From: Prochlorococcus sp. MIT 1314 | Lineage (GTDB): Bacteria; Cyanobacteriota; Cyanobacteriia; PCC-6307; Cyanobiaceae | DNA length: 64,000 bases | Direction: 5' to 3' | Assembly (NCBI RefSeq): GCF_034093315.1 | Contig: NZ_CP139300.1 | Coordinates: 62,001 to 126,000, forward strand | Shown here: positions 30,360 through 40,815 of the stretch, piece after piece | Layout: every line of letters starts with the position of its first letter | Numbering within the stretch: position 1 is the stretch's first letter | Notes under the pieces: generated by a model | Database searches by the model: none | What the model saw: the letters and a program-made list of their open reading frames with translations, nothing else | Told to the model about the DNA's origin: nothing | Position numbers and translations under genes: made by a program

Positions 30360-30537
30360 TATCTTTTTTTATTAAAACCAAATAATAACAAGAATAAAAA
30401 AGAAGAGTGTAAAAATTGCTGATAATTTTTTTTTATTAGGTCTTTAATACTGCCAATTATTAATGACAAGATTGCGTAGTCGAAGCTTGGTTTTTAAAGA
30501 AGTAATTTTGAATTAAACCATTTAAGTTTACTTGAAA

Positions 30538-31218
30538 TTATTGAGAATTTCCTTTACTAAATAATTTGAAGTTGTTCCAAAAATGTAAAAATATCCCAGT
30601 TGAAAGTAAAAATTCATAAATTTCTAAATCATTTCTTATGTGTTCAACTGTAGAAGCCCATGATATCTCGTAATAGAAAATATATAGAGCTGTTATCAAG
30701 AAAAATAAGCTTAATTTTTTGTCGGGGATTGAATTCAAATATGGCCATTTTCTCCAACCTATCCAACCAAATAAAATACAAATTGCAATTAAAATAGGAT
30801 CAAGAAAGAAATCATGAAAAAAAGGAAGATTATGTAAATTAGTTTCACTTTGAATACTTATTTCTGTTAAAGAATTAAGAGAGAAACCTGTTATTCTCTC
30901 TCCCCAACTTATTTCCTCAGCTGCAACGAAGAAGCAGAAAGCGCTGAGAATTAACCAAATAAATGAATTTATTGTTTTTTTATTTTTGCTTTTGAAATAG
31001 ATAAAAATACCAAATATTGATGATATAAAGTATTCAGAAAACTGAAGCCACTCTAAAGGTCCGTCTTCAAGTTTTAATAAATCAAACCATGTTAAACCAA
31101 TAATATTTTCCCCATAAGGAAAAATATATACAAATCCATAAATAAAAAGAATGTAATAAATTGGGAATAAATTAACTTCCGGAGATATATCACCCCAGGG
31201 GGTTCTAATTAATTTCAA
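30538..31218 (-). CDS. multi-pass membrane protein, hypothetical
   Basis: A 226-residue protein with about six or seven hydrophobic segments and a TTG start. FVAAEEISWGERITGFSL is a conserved-looking acidic loop between helices and DFFLDPILIAICILFGWIGWRKWP another. It follows the VTT-like gene on the same strand by 113 bp. No family recognised. Confidence 0.65.
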   Translation of the reverse strand: MKLIRTPWGDISPEVNLFPIYYILFIYGFVYIFPYGENIIGLTWFDLLKLEDGPLEWLQFSEYFISSIFGIFIYFKSKNKKTINSFIWLILSAFCFFVAAEEISWGERITGFSLNSLTEISIQSETNLHNLPFFHDFFLDPILIAICILFGWIGWRKWPYLNSIPDKKLSLFFLITALYIFYYEISWASTVEHIRNDLEIYEFLLSTGIFLHFWNNFKLFSKGNSQ

Positions 31219-31331
31219 AATTTAATTAAATATTTTATAAAAACATTCTATAACAATCCTGGAAGGAGAAAATAAAAAACATCTTTCTAAAAACAGAAAT
31301 AATTAATAATAATAAAAGAATATCTTTTTTA

Positions 31332-31880
31332 CTATGCACTTTGGATGATAAAGAAAAGAGAAAAATAGTACAAGTATGCTCCAAAAAGTGAATAAACTAT
31401 TATCAATCTTTTATTTATTTTCGATGATGCAATCAAATAGCTTCCTAGAGAGAAAGGTAATATTGGGAAAGTACGTATTAGCAATATGAAAATTGGTTTA
31501 AAAGTAATATTTTCAAATATATGTTTTAATCGATGATTTCTTATGTTTTTTATGAAAAGGATGTTTTTTGAAAATCTTAAATTTGTTGTTCTGATTAATA
31601 TGATTTGAGCAACACCTAAAATAGTTAAAATTGGTGCAAAAAAAATAATATATTTAAAACCAAAAAACTTTATCAATATAAAGTCAAATAAGATGGATAA
31701 AGGTAGGCCTAGAAATATAGAAAAAATATTTATTAATGCCAAATATCTATATTTAATTTCTATTATTAAATTCTCAAAGCCATTGTTATATCTAAGAAAA
31801 AGAGCAAATAAATAAATTATTATATAAAAAATAAAAATCTTAAATATTGTTGATTTAAAATTTAAATTTTTTCTAGACAT
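31332..31880 (-). CDS. VTT/DedA-like membrane protein
   Basis: A 182-residue membrane protein. FSIFLGLPLSILFDFILIKFFG and LLIRTFPILPFSLGSYLIA have the layout of the VTT (SNARE-associated, TVP38/DedA) core, where a re-entrant loop and an R-x-x-P-x-x-P segment are typical. Related proteins scramble or transport lipids. Its start overlaps the end of the methyltransferase gene by 19 bp, so they are co-translated. The family assignment is tentative. Confidence 0.6.
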   Translation of the reverse strand: MSRKNLNFKSTIFKIFIFYIIIYLFALFLRYNNGFENLIIEIKYRYLALINIFSIFLGLPLSILFDFILIKFFGFKYIIFFAPILTILGVAQIILIRTTNLRFSKNILFIKNIRNHRLKHIFENITFKPIFILLIRTFPILPFSLGSYLIASSKINKRLIIVYSLFGAYLYYFSLFFIIQSA

Positions 31881-32584
31881 ATTAAATTAAACATCCCCAA
31901 ATTTTTATCAAAGAAGAGTTTCTCAAAACTTCTTGTTACTTTAATCAACTTACCAATTCTTGTATTAAAAGAGTGCCCTCCGCTTAATAAATAAGAAAAT
32001 GGCATCATATTCTTTTTTTGAATTAGAGAGAACATAGGGAATAAATTTCTGAATTTTTCATAATCTCTCTCAAAAATTATCCATGAGAGTGCTTGATTTG
32101 AGTCTAATAGAGGATCTTTGGATTCAAATTTCCATTCAATTTGTTTTGGATCAAAAGGTTCGTGACCTATAAGTTTATAGACCAATCTACTCCAGTAATT
32201 ATTGCTTGGCTCAATCATAATTATTCTTCCTCCAACCAAAAGGGACTTTTCTGCTGATTTCAAAAACAATTCCGGGTCGCTTATATGATGAAAAACATTA
32301 ACCAAGATTATATTTGATATTTTGTTTTCAAAGTTTTTTCCTATATCCATTGCATTAAGTTTGAAATCAGTATTTGAATTTAAAAAAACATCTGTTTTTT
32401 TAATGGTTTTATTTATCTGATCTATAAAACTTGCACCGCATCCTAATTCAATATTAATGCCATCTATTTCAGAAATAAACTTTGAAATAATTTCATACCA
32501 CTCCTCATAAAGAAAACCTAATGCTGTATTCGATTTTTCGAAACCAATTCTATCCTCTGTAATTATCTCACCTTTATTTGACAT
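31862..32584 (-). CDS. SAM-dependent methyltransferase
   Basis: A 240-residue class I methyltransferase. Motif I is INIELGCGASFIDQI, motif II appears near NAMDIGKN and motif III as NIILVNVFHHISDPELFLK, then GGRIIMIEPSN. The acceptor is not deducible. It is first in a three-gene set with two membrane proteins and lies beside the tRNA-Ser, just outside the putative island. Confidence 0.82.
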   Translation of the reverse strand: MSNKGEIITEDRIGFEKSNTALGFLYEEWYEIISKFISEIDGINIELGCGASFIDQINKTIKKTDVFLNSNTDFKLNAMDIGKNFENKISNIILVNVFHHISDPELFLKSAEKSLLVGGRIIMIEPSNNYWSRLVYKLIGHEPFDPKQIEWKFESKDPLLDSNQALSWIIFERDYEKFRNLFPMFSLIQKKNMMPFSYLLSGGHSFNTRIGKLIKVTRSFEKLFFDKNLGMFNLICLEKI

Positions 32585-32688
32585 TTTCTTTAACGTAGGA
32601 AATATTATTCAAGAATTTGAATTGGAGAGATAAGTTATGAAAAGTTCTTAAGTTAATTTTTAAGATTTAAGTAATTAATTTTTAGAAC

Positions 32689-32774
32689 GGAGGGGGTGGG
32701 ATTCGAACCCACGGTGCCCTTGCAGACACGCTAGTTTTCAAGACTAGAGCCTTAAACCACTCGACCACCCCTCC
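32689..32774 (-). tRNA. tRNA-Ser (anticodon UGA)
   Basis: Read on the minus strand it starts GGAGGGG and ends CCCCTCCG. The 7-bp acceptor stem is perfect, the T arm reads GGGTTCGAATCCC, there is a long class II variable arm, and the anticodon stem-loop is CTAGT-CTTGAAA-ACTAG, giving TGA. The length is 86 nt without CCA. The 26 bases 32735-32760 recur exactly at 39879-39904. Confidence 0.95.
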
Positions 32775-32906
32775 AAAGGGACTATTCAGTTTTAGCCACC
32801 TAAACAGTATAGCAAAGGGAAGTGACAGCCTACAATAAGCCATATTGCTGAAGATTTTTAAATTTTTTGTGAAAATATATTTTGGCAACTTTATTAAAAT
32901 CAAATT

Positions 32907-33219: not shown

Positions 33220-33822
33220 GTGAACTTTAAAGTACTAATATCTAGCATTATCGCAGGAAGCACCCTTTTAACAATAGGAACTACGAATTCTGTTAATGCA
33301 TCAGGAGCTTGTGATAATGCTCCTCGAGGAGAGAAACTCCAAAGGACTGGACCAAATTCATGGCGGGTTTATGCAACTGTTAGAAAATCTGTGAAATCTA
33401 AAAATGAAGAAATGGTTGAATTCGAATTCGAAAGATTAGAGCTTAAGGCTCAAAAAGCACTAGCTAGGTTTGTTAATCGAGAAATTAAAAATTTCAATAA
33501 TCTTGATGAAAATAAGAAAAAGGAATTTGTAGTATTAGATGATGAACAATCAACTTCTTTATCAGGTGTGCAAGAAATTGTAGATCAAATTAATGCAAGT
33601 TCAGATGCGCTCCTTGTGGCATCTCAGGAAATTGGTCGTTGTCATGAACCAGGAGTACAAATTATGTTGACTTATGGTATTAATTCAGAAAATATATCTA
33701 CAGCATCTAATATAAATTCTCCAAATTCTAACAACACTGGAAATGATTCTCAAAGAGGAAACTTTTATAGAAACGATATAGACCAAGGCTATAACGGATA
33801 TCAAAATTGGGAAGATTTTTGA
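33220..33822 (+). CDS. exported island protein, paralogue of the 36005 gene
   Basis: A 200-residue protein. I chose the GTG at 33220 (MNFKVLISSIIAG) over the TTG at 33208, since it gives a normal signal peptide ending VNASG. The core has SVKSKNEEMVEFEFERLELKAQKALARF, which aligns with SIKSKNIEMIDFIKEKTDLN of the island protein at 36005, and later CHEPGVQIMLTYG against CLNNKGTYKISYG. Two Cys (mature 4 and near 143) may pair. The last 50 residues are Asn/Ser/Gly-rich and disordered. Helix spacing recalls LPP20-type lipoproteins. Function unknown. Confidence 0.72.
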   Translation: MNFKVLISSIIAGSTLLTIGTTNSVNASGACDNAPRGEKLQRTGPNSWRVYATVRKSVKSKNEEMVEFEFERLELKAQKALARFVNREIKNFNNLDENKKKEFVVLDDEQSTSLSGVQEIVDQINASSDALLVASQEIGRCHEPGVQIMLTYGINSENISTASNINSPNSNNTGNDSQRGNFYRNDIDQGYNGYQNWEDF

Positions 33823-33837
33823 TTTTAATCTAAATTA

Positions 33838-34017
33838 TTAGTAAGTTGAAGAACCCTGTTTTAATTTTGGTTGAACATTTTTTTCAAATTTTTCCTCTTT
33901 AGGAAGTTCTTTTATAAAGTTAGTAATTGATTGAAGTGCTTTTATTGTGTTTGATCTGAATGAAGCATTTGAATAGAGTAGAAAGAAAACCATACTGGCT
34001 ATTATAAGATTTCTCAT
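33838..34017 (-). CDS. small exported hypothetical protein
   Basis: A 59-residue ORF with ATG at 34017. Residues 1-20 (MRNLIIASMVFFLLYSNASF) form a signal sequence, and the mature part is helical and basic (IKELPKEEKFEKNVQPKLK). An AGGAG lies about 14 nt upstream, rather far. It converges on the gene ending at 33822 and is divergent from the one starting near 34087. Confidence 0.5.
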   Translation of the reverse strand: MRNLIIASMVFFLLYSNASFRSNTIKALQSITNFIKELPKEEKFEKNVQPKLKQGSSTY

Positions 34018-34086
34018 TATTTAAAAATTATCTCCTTCTAATATAATAATTTTAAACTCTTTCATATTTTACTAGAGGACAAGAAA

Positions 34087-34995
34087 ATTAATTTTAAAAA
34101 AAACTATTTATTAAAAAAGAATTTTTATAAATTTTTATATTTTTTGCTTTTTCTTATAGTTAATAATAATGATTTTGTAGCCTCATTTACTAATAAAAAT
34201 AATTTTTATAATTTATCGAATAAAAACAACTATATCTTGAATAATAATTTACTAGTTCAAGGTAATAATATAAAGACTATCATAGTTAATGGGACAGGAA
34301 ATTCAAAGGAAAAAGCGGCAATGAATGCAGCTCAAAATGCATTATTGATGGCATCTCCAAGATATGTAAAGAAAAGAAGGGTTGATCTTTATAAAAAGAC
34401 AGTAGTAAATAATAATATCGTTAAAAATGATAGTTTAGATAGTTTTAGAAGTACTAGTTTCGGCTTTAATCAGGGTTCAATATTATCATTTAAATTAATT
34501 AAAAGTTCTGCAAATAATAATTTGCACAAAGTAGTTGCAATTGCAAAAATAGGTTATGGACTAAATGAACAAGAATATCACCCTTTATTTAAACCTTCAG
34601 AAGTAAGTACAAAAGAAATTGGTTTAAAAAAAATATTTAAAATAGGTACCGGTTCTTCAGAAGATGATGCTATAAATGATGCGATAAAACAGGCACTACT
34701 ATTTGTAGTGGGAGAAAGAATTTATAGTGATGATTATTTAGATAGTGTAAAGAAACTTACTTATTTTATAGAAAATGAAATTGAAAAAAAAGATCTTTAT
34801 ATTAAAGAAACTATAGGTAAGTTAACTAGTGGATATAGTGAAGGTTACATTGAATCATTAAATATACTAAATTCTTTTGAAGAGGATGGTTTATTTAAAG
34901 TAGAGGCAGATGTAGTAGTTAGAATAAAAACTTTTTCATCTTATATTGATGAGAAATTAGATATTACAGGCATAAAAATCAAGGATGATAAATAA
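34087..34995 (+). CDS. exported protein with two LPP20/FlgT-N-like domains, likely ATT start
   Basis: A first TTG occurs at 34144, inside the hydrophobic stretch. The frame is open far upstream, and an AGAGG at 34074-34078 sits 8 nt before an ATT at 34087 that would give MNFKKNYLLKKNFYKFLYFL, a proper Lys-rich signal sequence. I therefore propose 34087 (302 residues). The mature part has two similar units: NGTGNSKEKAAMNAAQNALL and IGTGSSEDDAINDAIKQALL, the latter followed by SGYSEGYIESLNIL and FKVEADVVVRI. This layout recalls FlgT-N/LPP20/CsgG-associated domains of envelope proteins. It is first in a three-gene operon. Confidence 0.65.
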   Translation: MNFKKNYLLKKNFYKFLYFLLFLIVNNNDFVASFTNKNNFYNLSNKNNYILNNNLLVQGNNIKTIIVNGTGNSKEKAAMNAAQNALLMASPRYVKKRRVDLYKKTVVNNNIVKNDSLDSFRSTSFGFNQGSILSFKLIKSSANNNLHKVVAIAKIGYGLNEQEYHPLFKPSEVSTKEIGLKKIFKIGTGSSEDDAINDAIKQALLFVVGERIYSDDYLDSVKKLTYFIENEIEKKDLYIKETIGKLTSGYSEGYIESLNILNSFEEDGLFKVEADVVVRIKTFSSYIDEKLDITGIKIKDDK

Positions 34996-35007
34996 AAAAC
35001 TAAATCT

Positions 35008-36012
35008 ATGGATTTCATAATTAAAAAGCTAATTTTAATATTAATTACCATGTCATTTTTAGATTATTTTAAAAATGTAAATCCAAATATCCAAATTTTT
35101 GCATCAGATAGTACTGGGATAAATATTAACTTTGGAGACTCTATACAGGTAAAGGGAAATATTAAAAATTTGAAAGATCGAAAAGAAATGTACGAAAAAG
35201 AAATTATTAATAAAATCAAGCAAGGTAGGTCAGTAGAAGAAAAGATGGGGAAGGCTTTTTATGGTGTAAGAAGTTTTTTTGAGGATGATTTTTGTAAAGA
35301 AATTGGACAATTTTCAATTGTTGGAACAGTAGCATACCCTACGTGGTGCAATAGAGATGACGGTCCTTTTAGTATATTTAGAAATCCAAATAGTGTCGTT
35401 ATTATTCCTCTAACACTTGAATTGAATTCTGGATTTAAGGTAAATCTTATAGATACATTGAAAGATGGACTTCAGGCTGATGATATTGCTGTTATAAGAG
35501 GACATAAACATAATCCCCAGATACTTGCAGGTCCAAATTTTAAGTTTGGCCAAGATCAATTGTTTGGGATAATAAATGATAAGCAGAACTTAATGAAGTT
35601 ATATGAAATAAGTGAGGTAGGAATTTATAGAAATAATCAGTTTGATAAATTCTTTGAAAGAAATAGCTCATATGATTTGGCAATTGATTTGATTAACAAA
35701 AAAGGCCAAATGTATGGGGGTGTTTCATTTGGAAAGAATAAAAAAAATTGTGCTAATCATTCAAAAAACTGCCTTATAAACAGTATTCATTTATTGGAAT
35801 ACCATTATCAAAAAAATTCTCCTGAAATTATTAACGATAAAAATTGGGGTTATTTAACTGGTAAATTATTTCCTCCCCATTCACTAATAGAAGACTACGG
35901 TAGTTTAAAAAAAATATTTTTAAGCAGAAATTTTTATTTAATTATTGATATTAATGAAAATCAATTAAGTGAAATTTCTAGAGTTAATGTAAGGAAGATT
36001 AACTATGAATAG
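35008..36012 (+). CDS. exported island protein of unknown family
   Basis: A 334-residue protein with an N-terminal hydrophobic export segment (IIKKLILILITMSFLDYF). The body mixes short beta segments with Cys pairs (DDFCKEIG and TWCNRDDGPF; NCANHSKNC). It starts 12 bp after the preceding gene and its stop overlaps the next start by 8 bp, so translation is coupled. I recognise no domain. Confidence 0.7.
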   Translation: MDFIIKKLILILITMSFLDYFKNVNPNIQIFASDSTGININFGDSIQVKGNIKNLKDRKEMYEKEIINKIKQGRSVEEKMGKAFYGVRSFFEDDFCKEIGQFSIVGTVAYPTWCNRDDGPFSIFRNPNSVVIIPLTLELNSGFKVNLIDTLKDGLQADDIAVIRGHKHNPQILAGPNFKFGQDQLFGIINDKQNLMKLYEISEVGIYRNNQFDKFFERNSSYDLAIDLINKKGQMYGGVSFGKNKKNCANHSKNCLINSIHLLEYHYQKNSPEIINDKNWGYLTGKLFPPHSLIEDYGSLKKIFLSRNFYLIIDINENQLSEISRVNVRKINYE

Positions 36013-36442
36013 TTTTTTATTTTTTAGAAAATATTTTCTAATTGTGATGATAATTAATTTATTTAGCACTTCAGTTTTTAGTGAACAAAGAAATTGTTTA
36101 TCCTATCCCTATCCAGAGGGGATCTTTTTGAAAAAAAAATTTATGAGACAAAGACAGTTAATTTATACTCAAACAGTATCTATTAAAAGTAAAAATATCG
36201 AGATGATAGATTTTATCAAAGAAAAAACAGATTTAAATGCTTCATCCTCTTTATATAGACACATCAAGCTAAATTTTCCAAATTTGAAGGCTAATGATAT
36301 TGGAATCTATAAGATATATTCTTGCTTAAATAATAAAGGTACTTATAAGATTTCCTATGGTCAAAGAGTTGGTAGATTAAAGGGTTTAGATTTTCTTCAA
36401 AAATCAAGGAATTTCATTAAAAAAAAGTTAAAAAGGGATTAA
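36005..36442 (+). CDS. exported island protein, paralogue of the 33220 gene
   Basis: A 145-residue protein with a signal peptide (FLIVMIINLFSTSVFS). The core QTVSIKSKNIEMIDFIKEK aligns with the KSVKSKNEEMVEFEFER region of the protein at 33220, and the C-terminal CLNNKGTYKISYG with its CHEPGVQIMLTYG. Unlike that paralogue it lacks the Asn-rich tail and ends in a very basic KSRNFIKKKLKRD. Third gene of the operon. Confidence 0.7.
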   Translation: MNSFLFFRKYFLIVMIINLFSTSVFSEQRNCLSYPYPEGIFLKKKFMRQRQLIYTQTVSIKSKNIEMIDFIKEKTDLNASSSLYRHIKLNFPNLKANDIGIYKIYSCLNNKGTYKISYGQRVGRLKGLDFLQKSRNFIKKKLKRD

Positions 36443-36517
36443 ATTCTTTATTTAATATGAATAAAATTATCTGTTTTATTTAATTTTCCAGCATTATTTA
36501 AGTGAAAATATTGTTTT

Positions 36518-36655
36518 ATGGAGTTAAAGCAAAATAGCATAAGGATAAATATTAATAACTACAAAGACTTTTCCTATAAATTTAATGAAGCCAAGACAAT
36601 GGATAAAAATAAAAGGAAGGTTGTTAAACCCTTTTTTGGAAATCTTAAGTCCTAA
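36518..36655 (+). CDS. possible 45-residue basic protein
   Basis: The ORF has ATG at 36518 and TAA ending at 36655. The product is basic and soluble with VVKPFFGNLKS at the end. It lies 14 bp before the trypsin-like gene on the same strand, so it could be a leader peptide. No clear ribosome-binding site. Confidence 0.3.
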   Translation: MELKQNSIRININNYKDFSYKFNEAKTMDKNKRKVVKPFFGNLKS

Positions 36656-36669
36656 AATCCAATAAGGAA

Positions 36670-38298
36670 ATGAAACTTTTAGTAAGAACATTCATAATAT
36701 TATTTTTTGGTTTTCTTAATGTTAATTCTTTAAAGACATTTGCAATAAATTGTTCATCGCCAGTTCACAAAAATAAAGCAATATGTAGATATAAATCAGA
36801 TGATGAACCTAAAATTGATCCCAAAGAATTAATTGAAAAAGTAACTGTTTCTATAATTGGAATAAATGGAGATGAACAACCAGGCTCAGGGGTTCTTATA
36901 AAAAAAGAAGATAATGCTTATAGTGTTTTGACATCTGCGCATGTTGTTTGTAGTTTGCGAAATCAATTTGTTGATGCTGAAGAATATGCTTTAAAAACAT
37001 TTGATGGTTCTTGGCATGATTCTAATAATTACTCAAATCTCAAGGTTAATTGCCCTCCAATTTTGAAGGGTCAGGAAAAAATGAGTAGTACATTTTGTAG
37101 TGCGCCAATAAGTAAAGCCTATCCTTGGCCAATAGATATAGCTGTTTTAGAATTCACCTCAGATAAAGAATATATTGTTGCGAAAAGGTCAAGTTCTATC
37201 AAAAGATATGGAAAGGATATTTATGTTTCAGGATATCCTAAATCTGAAAATGGAAAATTTGTTATCCGGGAAAGTCAGGGGACTGTCGATATACCAGCAT
37301 CGTCGATTAATGAAACCTGCAAAGGATATGGTTTAAGATATCTCGCCCAAACAGAGATTGGTATGGATGGAGGGGGCGTATGGTCAAAGAAAGGAAAATT
37401 AGTAGGTATTCATGGTTATCGTGAAGTTAGTAGAGAAGAAAACTTATTATTAAGTCGAGGAAGCCATGGTATCGGGATTCATATTCCATATTGGAAACAA
37501 TTAATTGATCCATTTGATCCCTCTAAAGGATTTCCAGAAGATCTTGGGAAAAATAATGAAAAAGTTGATGCCTCAGCATTAATAAGTAGAGCTAAGTCAT
37601 TTATAAATATTGCAAGGACTGAAAAAATAAATAATAATCCTAATTTCATAGTAGAAGAGGCATCAACTCCTGTATTAGAAGGTTTAAAAAGAGCAGAAAA
37701 AATGGAAAGTAATCGGCCTTTGATTCCAGCACTAATAGCTCAGATTTATATTCGTAGATATGAAGATGGAACCAAAGATAAAACATATTTATCTGAAGCT
37801 CTTGAAAATATTAATAGAGCAATCAGACTTCAAAAACCTGCTTTTTTGTCTTCAAAAGATTCGTATGATGGAACATTCCAAAAGATAAGAGCTTATGTCC
37901 ATTTTTTATATGGTCAACATATAAATAATCAAGATTCCATCCTTTCATATCGTTATGCAATAAAAAATATTGATGAAAGGTTATCCTTAAAACCTGATGA
38001 TGTGACGTCCTGGAAAGATAAAGCTAATTACCATTTTTATGCAAAGGAATTAGGAAATGCATATGCATCTCTTATAAGGGCTTCAAAATTAGCTCCCAAA
38101 GACCCGAGTATTTTTATTGATATGGCATTCATCCTAGTTGAAAATAAAGAGTATAAAAGAGCATGCCAAGATTTTAATAGGGCAAATAATCTTATAAAAG
38201 AAGGTCTGTCTAAGCAAGGAAGTCAAGGCGCATTCGCAAATGATTATAAGCAGCAAAAAAAACGGATGAAACCATTCACAGATGCTTTAGGTTGTTGA
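36670..38298 (+). CDS. exported trypsin-fold protein plus TPR-like repeats, catalytic Ser replaced
   Basis: A 542-residue protein. Residues 1-26 are a signal peptide. Residues about 50-270 follow the trypsin-like serine protease plan of cyanobacterial HhoA-like proteins: His91 in VLTSAHVV and Asp156 in PIDIAVLEF are in place, but where GxSGGPV should stand the protein has EIGMDGGGVW, so Asp233 replaces the nucleophile. It is therefore probably an inactive, binding protease homologue. Residues about 300-540 are helical repeats of TPR type (YINRAIRLQ-like, DVTSWKDKANYHFYAKELG, SKLAPKDPSIFIDMAFILVENKEYKRACQDF). It likely acts in the periplasm. Confidence 0.78.
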   Translation: MKLLVRTFIILFFGFLNVNSLKTFAINCSSPVHKNKAICRYKSDDEPKIDPKELIEKVTVSIIGINGDEQPGSGVLIKKEDNAYSVLTSAHVVCSLRNQFVDAEEYALKTFDGSWHDSNNYSNLKVNCPPILKGQEKMSSTFCSAPISKAYPWPIDIAVLEFTSDKEYIVAKRSSSIKRYGKDIYVSGYPKSENGKFVIRESQGTVDIPASSINETCKGYGLRYLAQTEIGMDGGGVWSKKGKLVGIHGYREVSREENLLLSRGSHGIGIHIPYWKQLIDPFDPSKGFPEDLGKNNEKVDASALISRAKSFINIARTEKINNNPNFIVEEASTPVLEGLKRAEKMESNRPLIPALIAQIYIRRYEDGTKDKTYLSEALENINRAIRLQKPAFLSSKDSYDGTFQKIRAYVHFLYGQHINNQDSILSYRYAIKNIDERLSLKPDDVTSWKDKANYHFYAKELGNAYASLIRASKLAPKDPSIFIDMAFILVENKEYKRACQDFNRANNLIKEGLSKQGSQGAFANDYKQQKKRMKPFTDALGC

Positions 38299-38419
38299 GA
38301 AGGGATTTAAAAACAAATCTTATCTTAGGAAAATTACTTTTTGTTTAGGGATGTTTTATATTAACTTGACCAAGAGTCATAAAATAAGCAATCATAATTT
38401 AATAATTTATGTAAGGTTA

Positions 38420-38830
38420 ATGAAACGTTCATTATTAGCAACTACATCAGCCTTGTTTCTTGCAGGTACATTTGGTATTGGGCAAGTTTATGCTTTTGGT
38501 GTTCCTAAAGTCCCTGGACTCGGAGGAGGAGGCGGTGGTACAGATTCTATTACTGATAAGGCAAAAACAAAAGCTGCCAATAAGATTTTGAAGGATGTTG
38601 GCAAAATTGCATTTAGAGGAGGAAAAATTGTTGCATCAAAACAAAAATGGGCATGCGATAAACTATTAAAAGCACAAAAAATTGTAGTAGCAATTAATAA
38701 ACAGGATCTTATAGAAAAAGTTTCTGATTTGAGAGAAACATTATATTGTGGAATTACAGATCCTATCCCAGCAGAATTGCTAGCACCTGAAGAAATAAAA
38801 GGTGATGAGACTGAGAATTTCGCATCATAG
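38420..38830 (+). CDS. exported Gly-rich island protein
   Basis: A 136-residue protein. The ATG at 38420 gives a textbook signal peptide (MKRSLLATTSALFLAGTFG ... VYA-FG), whereas the frame's first ATG at 38351 adds 23 unlikely residues. The mature part starts with VPGLGGGGGG, then a basic helix (AKTKAANKILKDVGKIAF), two Cys (WACDKLL and LYCGITD) and an acidic tail. GTAAGG precedes the start. No family recognised. Confidence 0.72.
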   Translation: MKRSLLATTSALFLAGTFGIGQVYAFGVPKVPGLGGGGGGTDSITDKAKTKAANKILKDVGKIAFRGGKIVASKQKWACDKLLKAQKIVVAINKQDLIEKVSDLRETLYCGITDPIPAELLAPEEIKGDETENFAS

Positions 38831-38912
38831 GTTTAATTTAATTATTTCTGACAAATAAATAATATTTGAGTATTAACTATTTGTTTAATTATGATTTTAA
38901 AAAATTAATTTA

Positions 38913-39665
38913 TTATTCATAACATTTTGCTTTTCTAATCAAGCTTGCCCCTCCACCAATTGGCCCCGGTTTTGGAGCCATCCATTCTCCTTTCGAAGAG
39001 TTGCTTAATTTTCTAAAGACGGAGCTAAGATTTTCTTTGCAACTAACAGCAATCCAGCCGTAATCTGATTTTCGTGAAATGTATGGATTATATTGATAGG
39101 ACTGCTTTTTTTGATAGAAATATGCAGCTAATATATAATCGGATATCTTTAGTGTATTTGAATTGTATTTAAATTCACGAGATCTGTTTTTATATAAAGT
39201 AAGCCAATTACCTTTATGATTGGAAGCTGGATATGAAGGGTTATCGATATTCCATAAATATTTAGTTGCTGATGTATATCCCCAGAGCGGTGCTGCATCT
39301 GTTTTCTTGCAATGGAACTGTGCTATTTCTTCAAAGCTGCTTCCTTTTACAAGGCTGTTCCAAGTACCTCTTTGAGACATTTGTTTTCTTTTTCGTAAAT
39401 AGTAATCCTTATTTCGACAATTAATGTCTAAACGTCCAAGTATTTGTTTATTCCCCTCTACCAGCTTCATCTGCATTCTGAATGAATCATTGTTCAGCGG
39501 CTCATAACTTAAAAGATTTATCCATTGCGTAATATTCCCATAATCATCAACTCCCACGGGTTGCCACTCAAAACTTTTTGGGTCGGCGAATAATTTTTCA
39601 GGGAAATTTAAAAAGTAAAAAAGTAAAACTCCAAAAATTGTAAAGAGTTTTTTGTGAAAGTTCAT
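38913..39665 (-). CDS. exported protein with adhesin-E-like N-terminal domain
   Basis: A 250-residue protein beginning at the ATG at 39665 (one codon inside a TTG). A signal peptide ends at about residue 28 (KLFADP). FEWQPVGVDDYGNITQWINLLSY followed by ILGRLDINCRNKDYYLR resembles the short 'surface-adhesin E'-like domain found in many exported cyanobacterial proteins. A second part shows SDYGWIAVSCKENLSSVFRKL. Four Cys could form two disulfides. Last gene of the island, on the strand opposite to the operon. Confidence 0.65.
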   Translation of the reverse strand: MNFHKKLFTIFGVLLFYFLNFPEKLFADPKSFEWQPVGVDDYGNITQWINLLSYEPLNNDSFRMQMKLVEGNKQILGRLDINCRNKDYYLRKRKQMSQRGTWNSLVKGSSFEEIAQFHCKKTDAAPLWGYTSATKYLWNIDNPSYPASNHKGNWLTLYKNRSREFKYNSNTLKISDYILAAYFYQKKQSYQYNPYISRKSDYGWIAVSCKENLSSVFRKLSNSSKGEWMAPKPGPIGGGASLIRKAKCYE

Positions 39666-40113
39666 CAACTAGTGAATTTGTTCATTTCTTTAATTATTTT
39701 ATTATTGCCTTTTAACAGAAACAAGTTATATATTAACTTTCTAAAAATGCATAATCAAAAATATCAAAATTTAGGTTTAAAACTTAATTTAAAAGAGTTA
39801 CTCATTTTTTTGGAACTGATTCGGAACTGTATGACAAGTTATTCTCTAAATTGCTGATATAACTACAACGCAAACTAATTTTCAAGACTAGAGCCTTAAA
39901 CCACTTGACCACCCCTCAAGAGGGTTATTCAGTTGTGTTGCACTTGTCATGCTAAAAATGGTATGTCAGTGGTAGGCTTGAAAATTTCTGAACTAAATAT
40001 CTAAATAAATAAATTTATTAGTTTGAGTTTGAAAAAAAAAAGGTTAACTCTTATTGATTTTTGTATATACAAGTGAAATTAAATCCACGAAAAACTAGTT
40101 TGGCATTAGAAAA
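39666..40113. other. island right boundary, no gene
   Basis: These 448 bases hold the tRNA-Ser remnant (39875-39917) and its flank. An ORF of 67 codons at 39654-39857 has the composition of AT-rich spacer and I do not accept it. Nothing else is visible to 40113. Confidence 0.6.
39875..39917 (-). pseudogene. tRNA-Ser 5'-half remnant, island att site
   Basis: On the minus strand this is the 5' half of tRNA-Ser(UGA) from the first acceptor bases through the anticodon loop. 26 bases (39879-39904) are identical to 32735-32760 and the next 13 differ once. The first base of the acceptor is lost and one anticodon-stem base differs (ATTAG for ACTAG). Upstream flank similarity (TATTCAGTT) goes on to 39934. 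Beyond the anticodon stem the match stops. Confidence 0.9.
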
Positions 40114-40398: not shown

Positions 40399-40500
40399 CT
40401 AGCTTGTATAAGCTTTGCCTCTGTAAGTTAGTTCGTTGTGCTGCTTCTTTGCAACTTCTTTGTTCTGGACGTACTTTTGTCCTCTGTAAATTAGAGTCAT
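40399..40500 (-). CDS. DUF4278 mini-protein
   Basis: A 33-residue protein beginning MTLIYRGQKYVQNK and containing LTYRGKAY. The two YRG repeats define the cyanobacterial DUF4278 family, mostly very short proteins of unknown role. It is clearly coded with less AT-biased codons, has a strong terminator after it, and its ATG overlaps the stop of a 13-residue leader ORF. Confidence 0.85.
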   Translation of the reverse strand: MTLIYRGQKYVQNKEVAKKQHNELTYRGKAYTS

Positions 40501-40538
40501 GTTTTTAAGCTCCGGTTTCGCTTAAGTCCCCGTTCCAT
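40497..40538 (-). CDS. 13-residue leader peptide overlapping the DUF4278 start
   Basis: ATG at 40538 opens MERGLKRNRSLKT and its TGA overlaps the DUF4278 ATG as ATGA. The stretch is GC-richer than its surroundings, and CTTAAG copies at both ends of the leader start region could pair. It looks like translational coupling or a regulatory leader. Confidence 0.45.
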   Translation of the reverse strand: MERGLKRNRSLKT

Positions 40539-40815
40539 GGCTTAAGTCGATTTGCGGCTTGCTAAACGCAAGTTGAACGTTTTGGTAGCGGTTGCTACAA
40601 ATAAATAGTAACATCCAAGAAAATTATTTGTCCAGGTTTTTAATAAATAAACTTAAATATCTTAATGATTCAATTAGGAGGATCCTAGTAAAGAAAATAT
40701 TTGCCTTTAAACCTTATGCCGTTTCTTGCAGGTTACATTTTGTTCGTTTTTAAGAAGAATTTTTTATTTAAACACTTTTTAAATGTAAAATTCTGAATAT
40801 TATAAAATTTGTTTT
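40539..40815. other. leader and promoter region of DUF4278 and the next gene
   Basis: No gene is seen. On the minus strand a GC-richer stretch of about 70 bp precedes the leader peptide and contains GTAGC-GGTT-GCTAC (40590s), a small hairpin. The remainder is AT-rich spacer before the ATG at 40816. Confidence 0.4.

Follow-up and report, generated by a model that had tools for sequence, protein, structure and literature searches.

Seven probably exported proteins beside a tRNA-Ser gene

We analyzed a 64,000-nucleotide stretch of the Prochlorococcus sp. MIT 1314 genome (NZ_CP139300.1, positions 62,001 to 126,000; hereafter the window, with positions counted from its first letter). This stretch belongs to a closed genome of 1,704,447 bases, the low G+C content of which we read as that of a Prochlorococcus of the high-light kind. 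The window harbors seven genes (33220-39665; P1 to P7 in Table 1) that are bounded by a tRNA-Ser gene on one side and by a copy of that gene's 5′ half on the other, and all seven encode proteins with likely export signals. This island carries a split and elaborated copy of an exported three-protein module that comprises two small subunits and a long FlgT_N/LPP20-type (SHS2/dodecin-like) protein. The locus is larger than described in a first-pass annotation of the same DNA, from which both the tRNA-Ser boundary repeat and member gene P7 (38916-39665, minus strand) are absent.

Table 1. Features of the tRNA-Ser island in the window
Feature	Position	Strand	Description	Basis
tRNA-Ser(UGA)	32687..32775	-	Island boundary and insertion site	ARAGORN; Rfam RF00005, 57.3 bits
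P1	33220..33822	+	Exported small subunit of the "tailed" type, with a near-invariant Cys pair, an S/N-rich linker, and GYNGY..DF at the C terminus	
P2	34087..34995	+	Exported; N-terminal part of the ancestral long protein, with two FlgT_N/LPP20-type repeats and a probable ATT start	
P3	35008..36012	+	Exported; C-terminal part of the ancestral long protein, own likely signal peptide	hhalign to the long family
P4	36005..36442	+	Tailless P1 paralogue, second small subunit	
P5	36670..38298	+	Exported trypsin-like domain and TPR-like region; Asp233 replaces the catalytic Ser (GMDGGG, codon GAT at 37366)	Pfam
P6	38420..38830	+	Small exported protein, no known family	
P7 (gene 38916)	38913..39665	-	Exported protein of no known family, with relatives beside unsplit modules in other Prochlorococcus	
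Copy of tRNA-Ser 5′ half	39875..39924	.	50 bp, 92% identity; distal boundary of the insertion	Direct repeat D1; similar fragments here in other genomes

Export was scored with a crude hydrophobicity rule that requires a best 12-mer of at least 1.8 within the first 38 residues and no further transmembrane-like stretch. Six of the seven island proteins pass this rule, with P6 narrowly under it (1.73 versus 1.8), compared with 2 of 35 control open reading frames (ORFs) of at least 200 residues in the rest of the window; this bears out the first-pass claim that nearly all of the cargo genes have N-terminal export signals. The coupling proposed there for P2 to P4 (34087-36442) is likewise evident, in a 12-bp gap (34996-35007) and an 8-bp overlap (36005-36012). 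No ATG, GTG, or TTG start gives P2 a whole signal peptide; the ATT at 34087, preceded by an AGAGGA Shine–Dalgarno sequence at 34074, is the probable start codon.

Only one of the seven genes has a Pfam family above the cut-off. Searches of all seven window proteins against Pfam, PADLOC, and PHROGs return no usable name for P1, P3, P4, P6, or P7, nor does Pfam when relatives are used as queries. NCBIfam, queried with P5, P7, and eight core relatives (a set outside which the P1, P2, P3, P4, and P6 of the window lie), also adds no usable name for any of these five, and searches of PDB sequences with P1 and the long family give only weak, unrelated names. The sole strong PHROGs match is to an LprI part fused to the long protein of locus L160.

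A long protein split in two and its small subunits

Unsplit long proteins of 399 to 692 residues encoded elsewhere match P2, and in a first comparison two of these also match P3. In hhalign profile comparisons, the P3 family aligns with the long family (P3 rows excluded) at 99.1% (E = 5e-19) over columns 151-469, and the P2 family does so at 98.3% (E = 1e-14), with its first repeat over columns 37-143. These alignments settle the split: P2 (the repeats) and P3 (the rest) correspond by profile to successive parts of a single ancestral protein, each now with a likely export signal. A tailed small gene, a long gene, and a tailless small gene follow one another on the same strand in AG-363-M21, AG-402-K04, and AG-315-B03, and the window order of P1, P2 plus P3, and P4 is collinear with this three-gene module, with the long gene cut in two.

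The tandem repeats attributed to P2 in the first-pass annotation are present (GTGNS and GTGSS), whereas their assignment to a family lies below the Pfam threshold (FlgT_N, 13.2 versus 28.8 bits). None of the seven window proteins matches LPP20 (PF02169) in Pfam at E = 1. LPP20 matches are found in 5 of the 11 rows of A1 (best, 1.1e-4), and the long protein of L160 scores 16.1 bits versus a cut-off of 25.9 bits. Other long proteins are elaborated further: Pfam identifies fusions to DnaJ (L169:6233-8137) and LprI (L160:735-2423) and a PDZ domain in one row of A1, and a fusion at L065:8876-10954 is apparent from reading the sequence. In G241, a single tailed small gene lies between two paralogous long genes (L138:3314-7534).

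P1 and P4 share the S-x-K-S-K-N-x-E-M-x-x-F motif, as noted in the first-pass annotation, and are homologous by profile. A profile of P1 relatives that contains no P4-type row finds the P4 genes of G113 (7.5e-7), the window's genome (1.7e-5), and G073 (1.2e-4) and misses those of G137 and G075. The accompanying proposal that one of the two arose from the other is too simple, since tailless second copies are also found in another genus and, with weak E-values of 3e-8 to 2e-5, at three proteobacterial loci. The Cys pair is near-invariant in 46 aligned small proteins. Among the 30 P1-type proteins of 20 loci, 18 end in Phe, 2 end in Trp, and 10 are tailless second copies, so that there is one tailed protein per locus; the tail is of low complexity with a conserved end, and the terminal Phe or Trp mostly follows a stretch such as GYSNT..L..F. 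Paralogy of P1 and the long proteins at the level of sequence was considered and dropped (2.6% in a profile comparison).

Distribution of the cassette and of the module

We surveyed 151 genomes of the genus, that of the window included. Matches to P1 are found in 7 genomes, P2 in 8, P3 in 5, P4 in 5, P6 in 6, and P7 in 8, and P5 matches 20, of which 6 are strong. All seven genes are present in one order in five genomes, which are the window's genome, G073, G113, G137, and G075, the last of these with its cassette on two contigs; a sixth genome, G117, keeps the last three genes on a contig that starts inside P5. The flanks in common with the window (both in G113, the right in G075, G137, and G117, and the left in G073) place the cassette at one position in all carriers. 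The genes are not scattered but travel together, and this order, with the homology described above, supports the earlier description of the locus as a set of exported, partly paralogous proteins that make up island cargo. In G137 and G073, one extra small exported gene precedes the P5 orthologue and two more genes lie upstream, and the three extra proteins of G137 have no Pfam match. At the level of the family, a P1-type profile matches 7 of 201 genomes. An unsplit module of AG-402-M15 lies in this tRNA-Ser region as well, on the opposite side of the tRNA.

A scan of genome contigs with the long family extends this distribution to 26 loci, 15 of them from Prochlorococcus and 11 from other bacteria: Microvirga (three), gammaproteobacterial metagenome-assembled genomes (MAGs; two), Crenothrix, a betaproteobacterium, an unclassified proteobacterium, HTCC2143, an Acidobacteria MAG, and a Bryobacterales MAG. 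A P1-type gene neighbors the long gene at 20 of the 26 loci, although an ORF separates the two at one of these. The P1 model was trained on picocyanobacteria only, with several of the Prochlorococcus loci in its training set and all 11 of the noncyanobacterial loci outside it; this model identifies a small gene in 10 of the 11, the eleventh (L173) being at a contig end, and the same models find no match in 319 control ORFs. By these models, the pairing of small and long genes recurs in Proteobacteria and Acidobacteria, and the core of the module is not peculiar to picocyanobacteria. AG-436-C05 encodes four long-type genes on four contigs (L150, L153, L163, and L170), one of which is beside a small-subunit gene.

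Relatives in mobile DNA bear on a further proposal of the first-pass annotation, in which contact with phage or grazers is perhaps changed by these proteins, here taken as a barrier in the envelope or a structure on the cell surface. The patchy island distribution and likely exported products would fit such a role, and Prochlorococcus islands often carry cell-surface genes. We nevertheless regard it as improbable: IMG/VR viral contigs contain no relatives of the P3, long, or P7 families or of P5, the module is also found in bacteria of other phyla, and PADLOC-DB 2.0.0 gives no convincing match, with the best in the window (0.0057) extending over part of P5 only. Phage records contain no relatives of P5 or of the AG-363-M21 long protein, and plasmids contain none of the Microvirga long protein or of the Crenothrix P1.

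A repeatedly used tRNA-Ser insertion site

For comparison of the site, we fetched 10 cassette-free stretches beside the same right flank. The full tRNA-Ser gene is present in seven of these. Two (L208 and L213) are empty sites with the tRNA ≈190 bp from the right flank and nothing in between, and the other five tRNA-bearing stretches contain one to three extra tRNA fragments each. Fragments of the 5′ half are also found in the carriers G113, G137, and G117 and in AG-402-M15. Taken together, empty sites, fragment-bearing alleles, and carrier fragments reveal a tRNA-Ser site that has been used repeatedly for insertions. The position of the fragment differs among carriers, being distal to the cassette in the window and G117 but on the tRNA side in G113 and G137, where the cassette is therefore not bracketed by a fragment; this difference argues against a history of one simple insertion. 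The sequence strip outside the fragment weakly resembles the tRNA-side strip at three cassette-free sites (z of 4.4 to 5.7, versus 2.3 to 3.5 for the island side in the same comparison), which is therefore only suggestive as to which tRNA copy is the original. A search with the right flank matches 147 of the 151 genomes, but short matches of low score are among these, and we do not take this figure as a tally of the locus.

Two further features neighbor the island. Across the tRNA-Ser gene, a second insertion occupies 30395-32680 of the window, since the left flank of the empty-site genomes ends at ≈30394 with the tRNA ≈45 to 70 bp on; this interval holds weak matches to a methyltransferase and to a VTT-domain protein. 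On the other side, a glutamine-II riboswitch (40521-40582, minus strand) is followed by a 33-residue ORF (40399-40500, minus strand) with two YRGxxY repeats, which we take to resemble DUF4278.

A probable pseudoprotease and other accessory genes

P5 matches Trypsin_2 (PF13365) in Pfam at 1.9e-11, with TPR below the cut-off. By position, His91 and Asp156 of the catalytic triad are present and the serine is Asp233. This Asp is found in four of six P5 orthologues (window, G113, G075, and G117), whereas G137 and G073 have Ser; the motif is also present in nine of ten other proteins examined, all with Ser, although two of these nine match P5 only in the first 44 residues. The Ser in these orthologues and other proteins makes it probable that the Ser-to-Asp change is derived, and on sequence grounds P5 is a probable pseudoprotease. 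What the first-pass annotation called a protease-like TPR protein thus retains a trypsin-like domain and a TPR-like region but lacks the catalytic serine. In G043, a leader like the first 44 residues of P5 is fused in frame to a P7 relative (L042:1501-2310), a pattern that suggests an exchange of export leaders between island genes. The trypsin-like proteins L051 and L052 share this P5-type leader.

The loss of a catalytic residue, the lack of a conventional start in P2, the broken P4 of G075, and the presence of the long gene in two ORFs in G226 are what would be expected if these genes were a decaying remnant under no selection. Against this stand seven frames that are all open in the window, a split form common to five genomes, a likely signal peptide of P3's own, and conservation of the two small accessory proteins across six cassettes (78-86% identity for P6 and 60-86% for P7), and we consider decay an improbable account of the island.

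P7 relatives are also encoded beside unsplit modules in AG-402-M15, AG-418-F08, AG-402-A08, and AG-402-B05, each of which has a CsgG-family gene separating the P7 relative from the long gene. A CsgG-family gene adjoins the long gene in AG-363-N16 and is ≈2 kb away in G241, giving six distinct places near the module, at five of which it is adjacent. Three tested neighbors match Pfam CsgG at 7e-32, 5e-30, and 4e-28, and one neighbor matches solved CsgG chains at 2.5e-4. The module might on this evidence be an accessory of a CsgG-type outer-membrane secretion channel, with the long protein as a periplasmic adaptor, the small tailed protein (its tail being of low complexity with a conserved end) or another small exported protein as the substrate, and the channel for the window encoded elsewhere. 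We judge this unlikely, though less so than decay or a role in phage or grazer contact. A model of four Prochlorococcus CsgG proteins finds none in the window, in the stretches with split cassettes, or at the 11 noncyanobacterial loci (whole genomes were not searched), and the neighbors elsewhere are assigned to CsgG by family match. CsgG is itself a ring channel, and a secretion role would therefore overlap with the assembly proposed below.

Predicted folds and a proposed envelope assembly

The long protein was modeled as the AG-363-M21 homologue, standing in for P2 (predicted local distance difference test score [pLDDT] of 66.5 and predicted template modeling score of 0.54). Its repeat domain aligns with FlgT (3w1e) with Z = 8.7 and a root-mean-square deviation (rmsd) of 2.4 Å over 80 residues; an LPHT-ring chain (Z = 7.4), dodecins (6.6 and below), and HP1454 (5.3) also match, and FlgT is the top match in Foldseek as well. 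The model of P1 (pLDDT of 80.3) has its last residues confidently placed (block means of 84 and 88), and its one notable match is Lpp20 (5ok8; Foldseek probability of 0.98). The small subunit and the repeat domain thus both best match SHS2/LPP20-type folds, with modest scores. These fold matches support the link to LPP20 and FlgT-N that had been drawn from P2 alone in the first-pass annotation. Immunoglobulin-like matches of the C-terminal part of the long model were rejected as background (Z under 5). In PMC12222027, FlgP, Lpp20, FlgT, and dodecin are described as sharing an SHS2-like fold, with FlgP and FlgT forming rings and ring formation going with an insert after the SHS2 helix.

We find no FlgI (PF02119, the flagellar P-ring protein) in the 15 picocyanobacterial genomes with module genes, 8 of which are at least 90% complete and among which G117 is limited to the last three genes and G048 to a long gene. 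Twenty neighbor proteins at eight noncyanobacterial loci (L158, L159, L160, L162, L164, L169, L171, and L175, with L161, L168, and L173 left out) carry no flagellar Pfam name. The module therefore appears not to be a flagellar part in picocyanobacteria, which appear to have no flagellar motors. Our preferred reading is that the module probably forms a non-flagellar oligomeric assembly in the periplasm or at the outer membrane. The subunits would be exported through the Sec pathway and fold in the periplasm, a location suggested by the near-invariant Cys pair; their SHS2-type domains may then oligomerize by analogy with ring-forming relatives, with the conserved C-terminal tail of the small subunit as a putative peptide for docking. 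An oligomeric, non-flagellar scaffold at the outer membrane would result, with the trypsin/TPR pseudoprotease and the two small exported proteins as candidate accessory parts for scaffolding or client binding.

A number of observations weigh against this assembly. The oligomer is a prediction, the long model is of moderate quality, and the part of it equal to P3 has no recognized fold. The Foldseek E-values for FlgT (3.2e-3, probability of 0.35) and for Lpp20 (0.026) both exceed 0.001, the structural alignment of P1 with Lpp20 is weak (VIA Z = 5.6, rmsd of 5.5 Å, 105 residues), and the aligner itself warns that unrelated models commonly give a Z under 8 and that models with no clear relatives often reach a best Z of 7 to 8. 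The P1 and long profiles show no sequence relation, no P1 gene is found at 5 of the 26 long-gene loci (L152, L153, L163, L166, and L170), three of which are from AG-436-C05 with its complete pair at L150, and six fetched stretches (L144-L149) contain distant P1-type genes but no long gene. The P4 orthologue of G075 is broken by five stops. FlgI is present in all eight of the noncyanobacterial carriers searched (a set outside which L161, L173, and L175 lie), and a flagellar link may therefore exist outside cyanobacteria. Finally, for the Helicobacter pylori proteins with similar folds, PMC11756786 describes no mutual binding of HP1454 and HP1456 in a two-hybrid assay and unchanged motility and bacitracin resistance on deletion of hp1456.

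These analyses give the seven island genes an identity and link four of them to a module with recognizable rules, namely a long SHS2-type repeat protein, a tailed small subunit, and an optional tailless copy, found in Prochlorococcus, Proteobacteria, and Acidobacteria. Flagellar motors are the main known setting of SHS2/LPP20 ring proteins, and a conserved version in cells that lack a P-ring gene would show the role of such assemblies apart from motility. As a more tentative and speculative extension, which we think somewhat doubtful, non-flagellated picocyanobacteria might use relatives of flagellar disk proteins to make a collar or ring in the periplasm, which in some lineages would surround or adjoin a CsgG-like outer-membrane channel and which would move between strains on tRNA-Ser islands; the module would then be an envelope machine not described before, present in several phyla and with the small-subunit tail as its assembly signal. 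The split of the long gene, the probable pseudoprotease, and the conserved tail all lend themselves to direct tests. In the open literature, which mostly does not cover subscription papers, we found nothing on Prochlorococcus together with LPP20 or on the term "LPP20 domain"; by title, papers on CsgG with Prochlorococcus concern only phages of other marine bacteria and phage therapeutics, and those that combine CsgG, LPP20, and FlgT all concern flagellar motors.

Comparison with known systems

The island resembles Tycheposons, which are also tRNA-bounded Prochlorococcus cargo elements and which by rule carry a tRNA fragment at the far end of the element; the window element has a tRNA at one end and a fragment at the other. 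Tycheposons are expected to encode a tyrosine recombinase, whereas no recombinase of this or any other kind has a Pfam match among the seven island genes, smaller ORFs lying outside the scan; the element may be non-autonomous or a remnant. The Tycheposon element is described second-hand in PMC10872708.

Among flagellar proteins, FlgT, a Vibrio ring protein, has an N-terminal domain (PF16548, FlgT_N) that is the best fold match of the repeat domain, and by our reading of the model the long protein also has an insert after the SHS2 helix. In contrast, the middle and C-terminal domains of FlgT are not recognized by Pfam in the window proteins. Lpp20 (HP1456) and HP1454 of H. pylori are both among the fold matches of the module proteins. 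According to PMC11756786, they are encoded in one operon as a small SHS2-type protein and a larger secreted protein with a first domain that resembles Lpp20, and both interact with flagellar accessories. Lpp20 is a predicted lipoprotein, whereas the window proteins show no clear lipobox on reading and have the near-invariant Cys pair, and common ancestry of the two sets is not supported by sequence. Finally, FlgP of the Campylobacter jejuni basal disk is, like P1, exported and SHS2-like, and P1 also has, by our reading, an insert after the SHS2 helix; this insert is a β-hairpin in the flagellar FlgP and helical in the model of P1.

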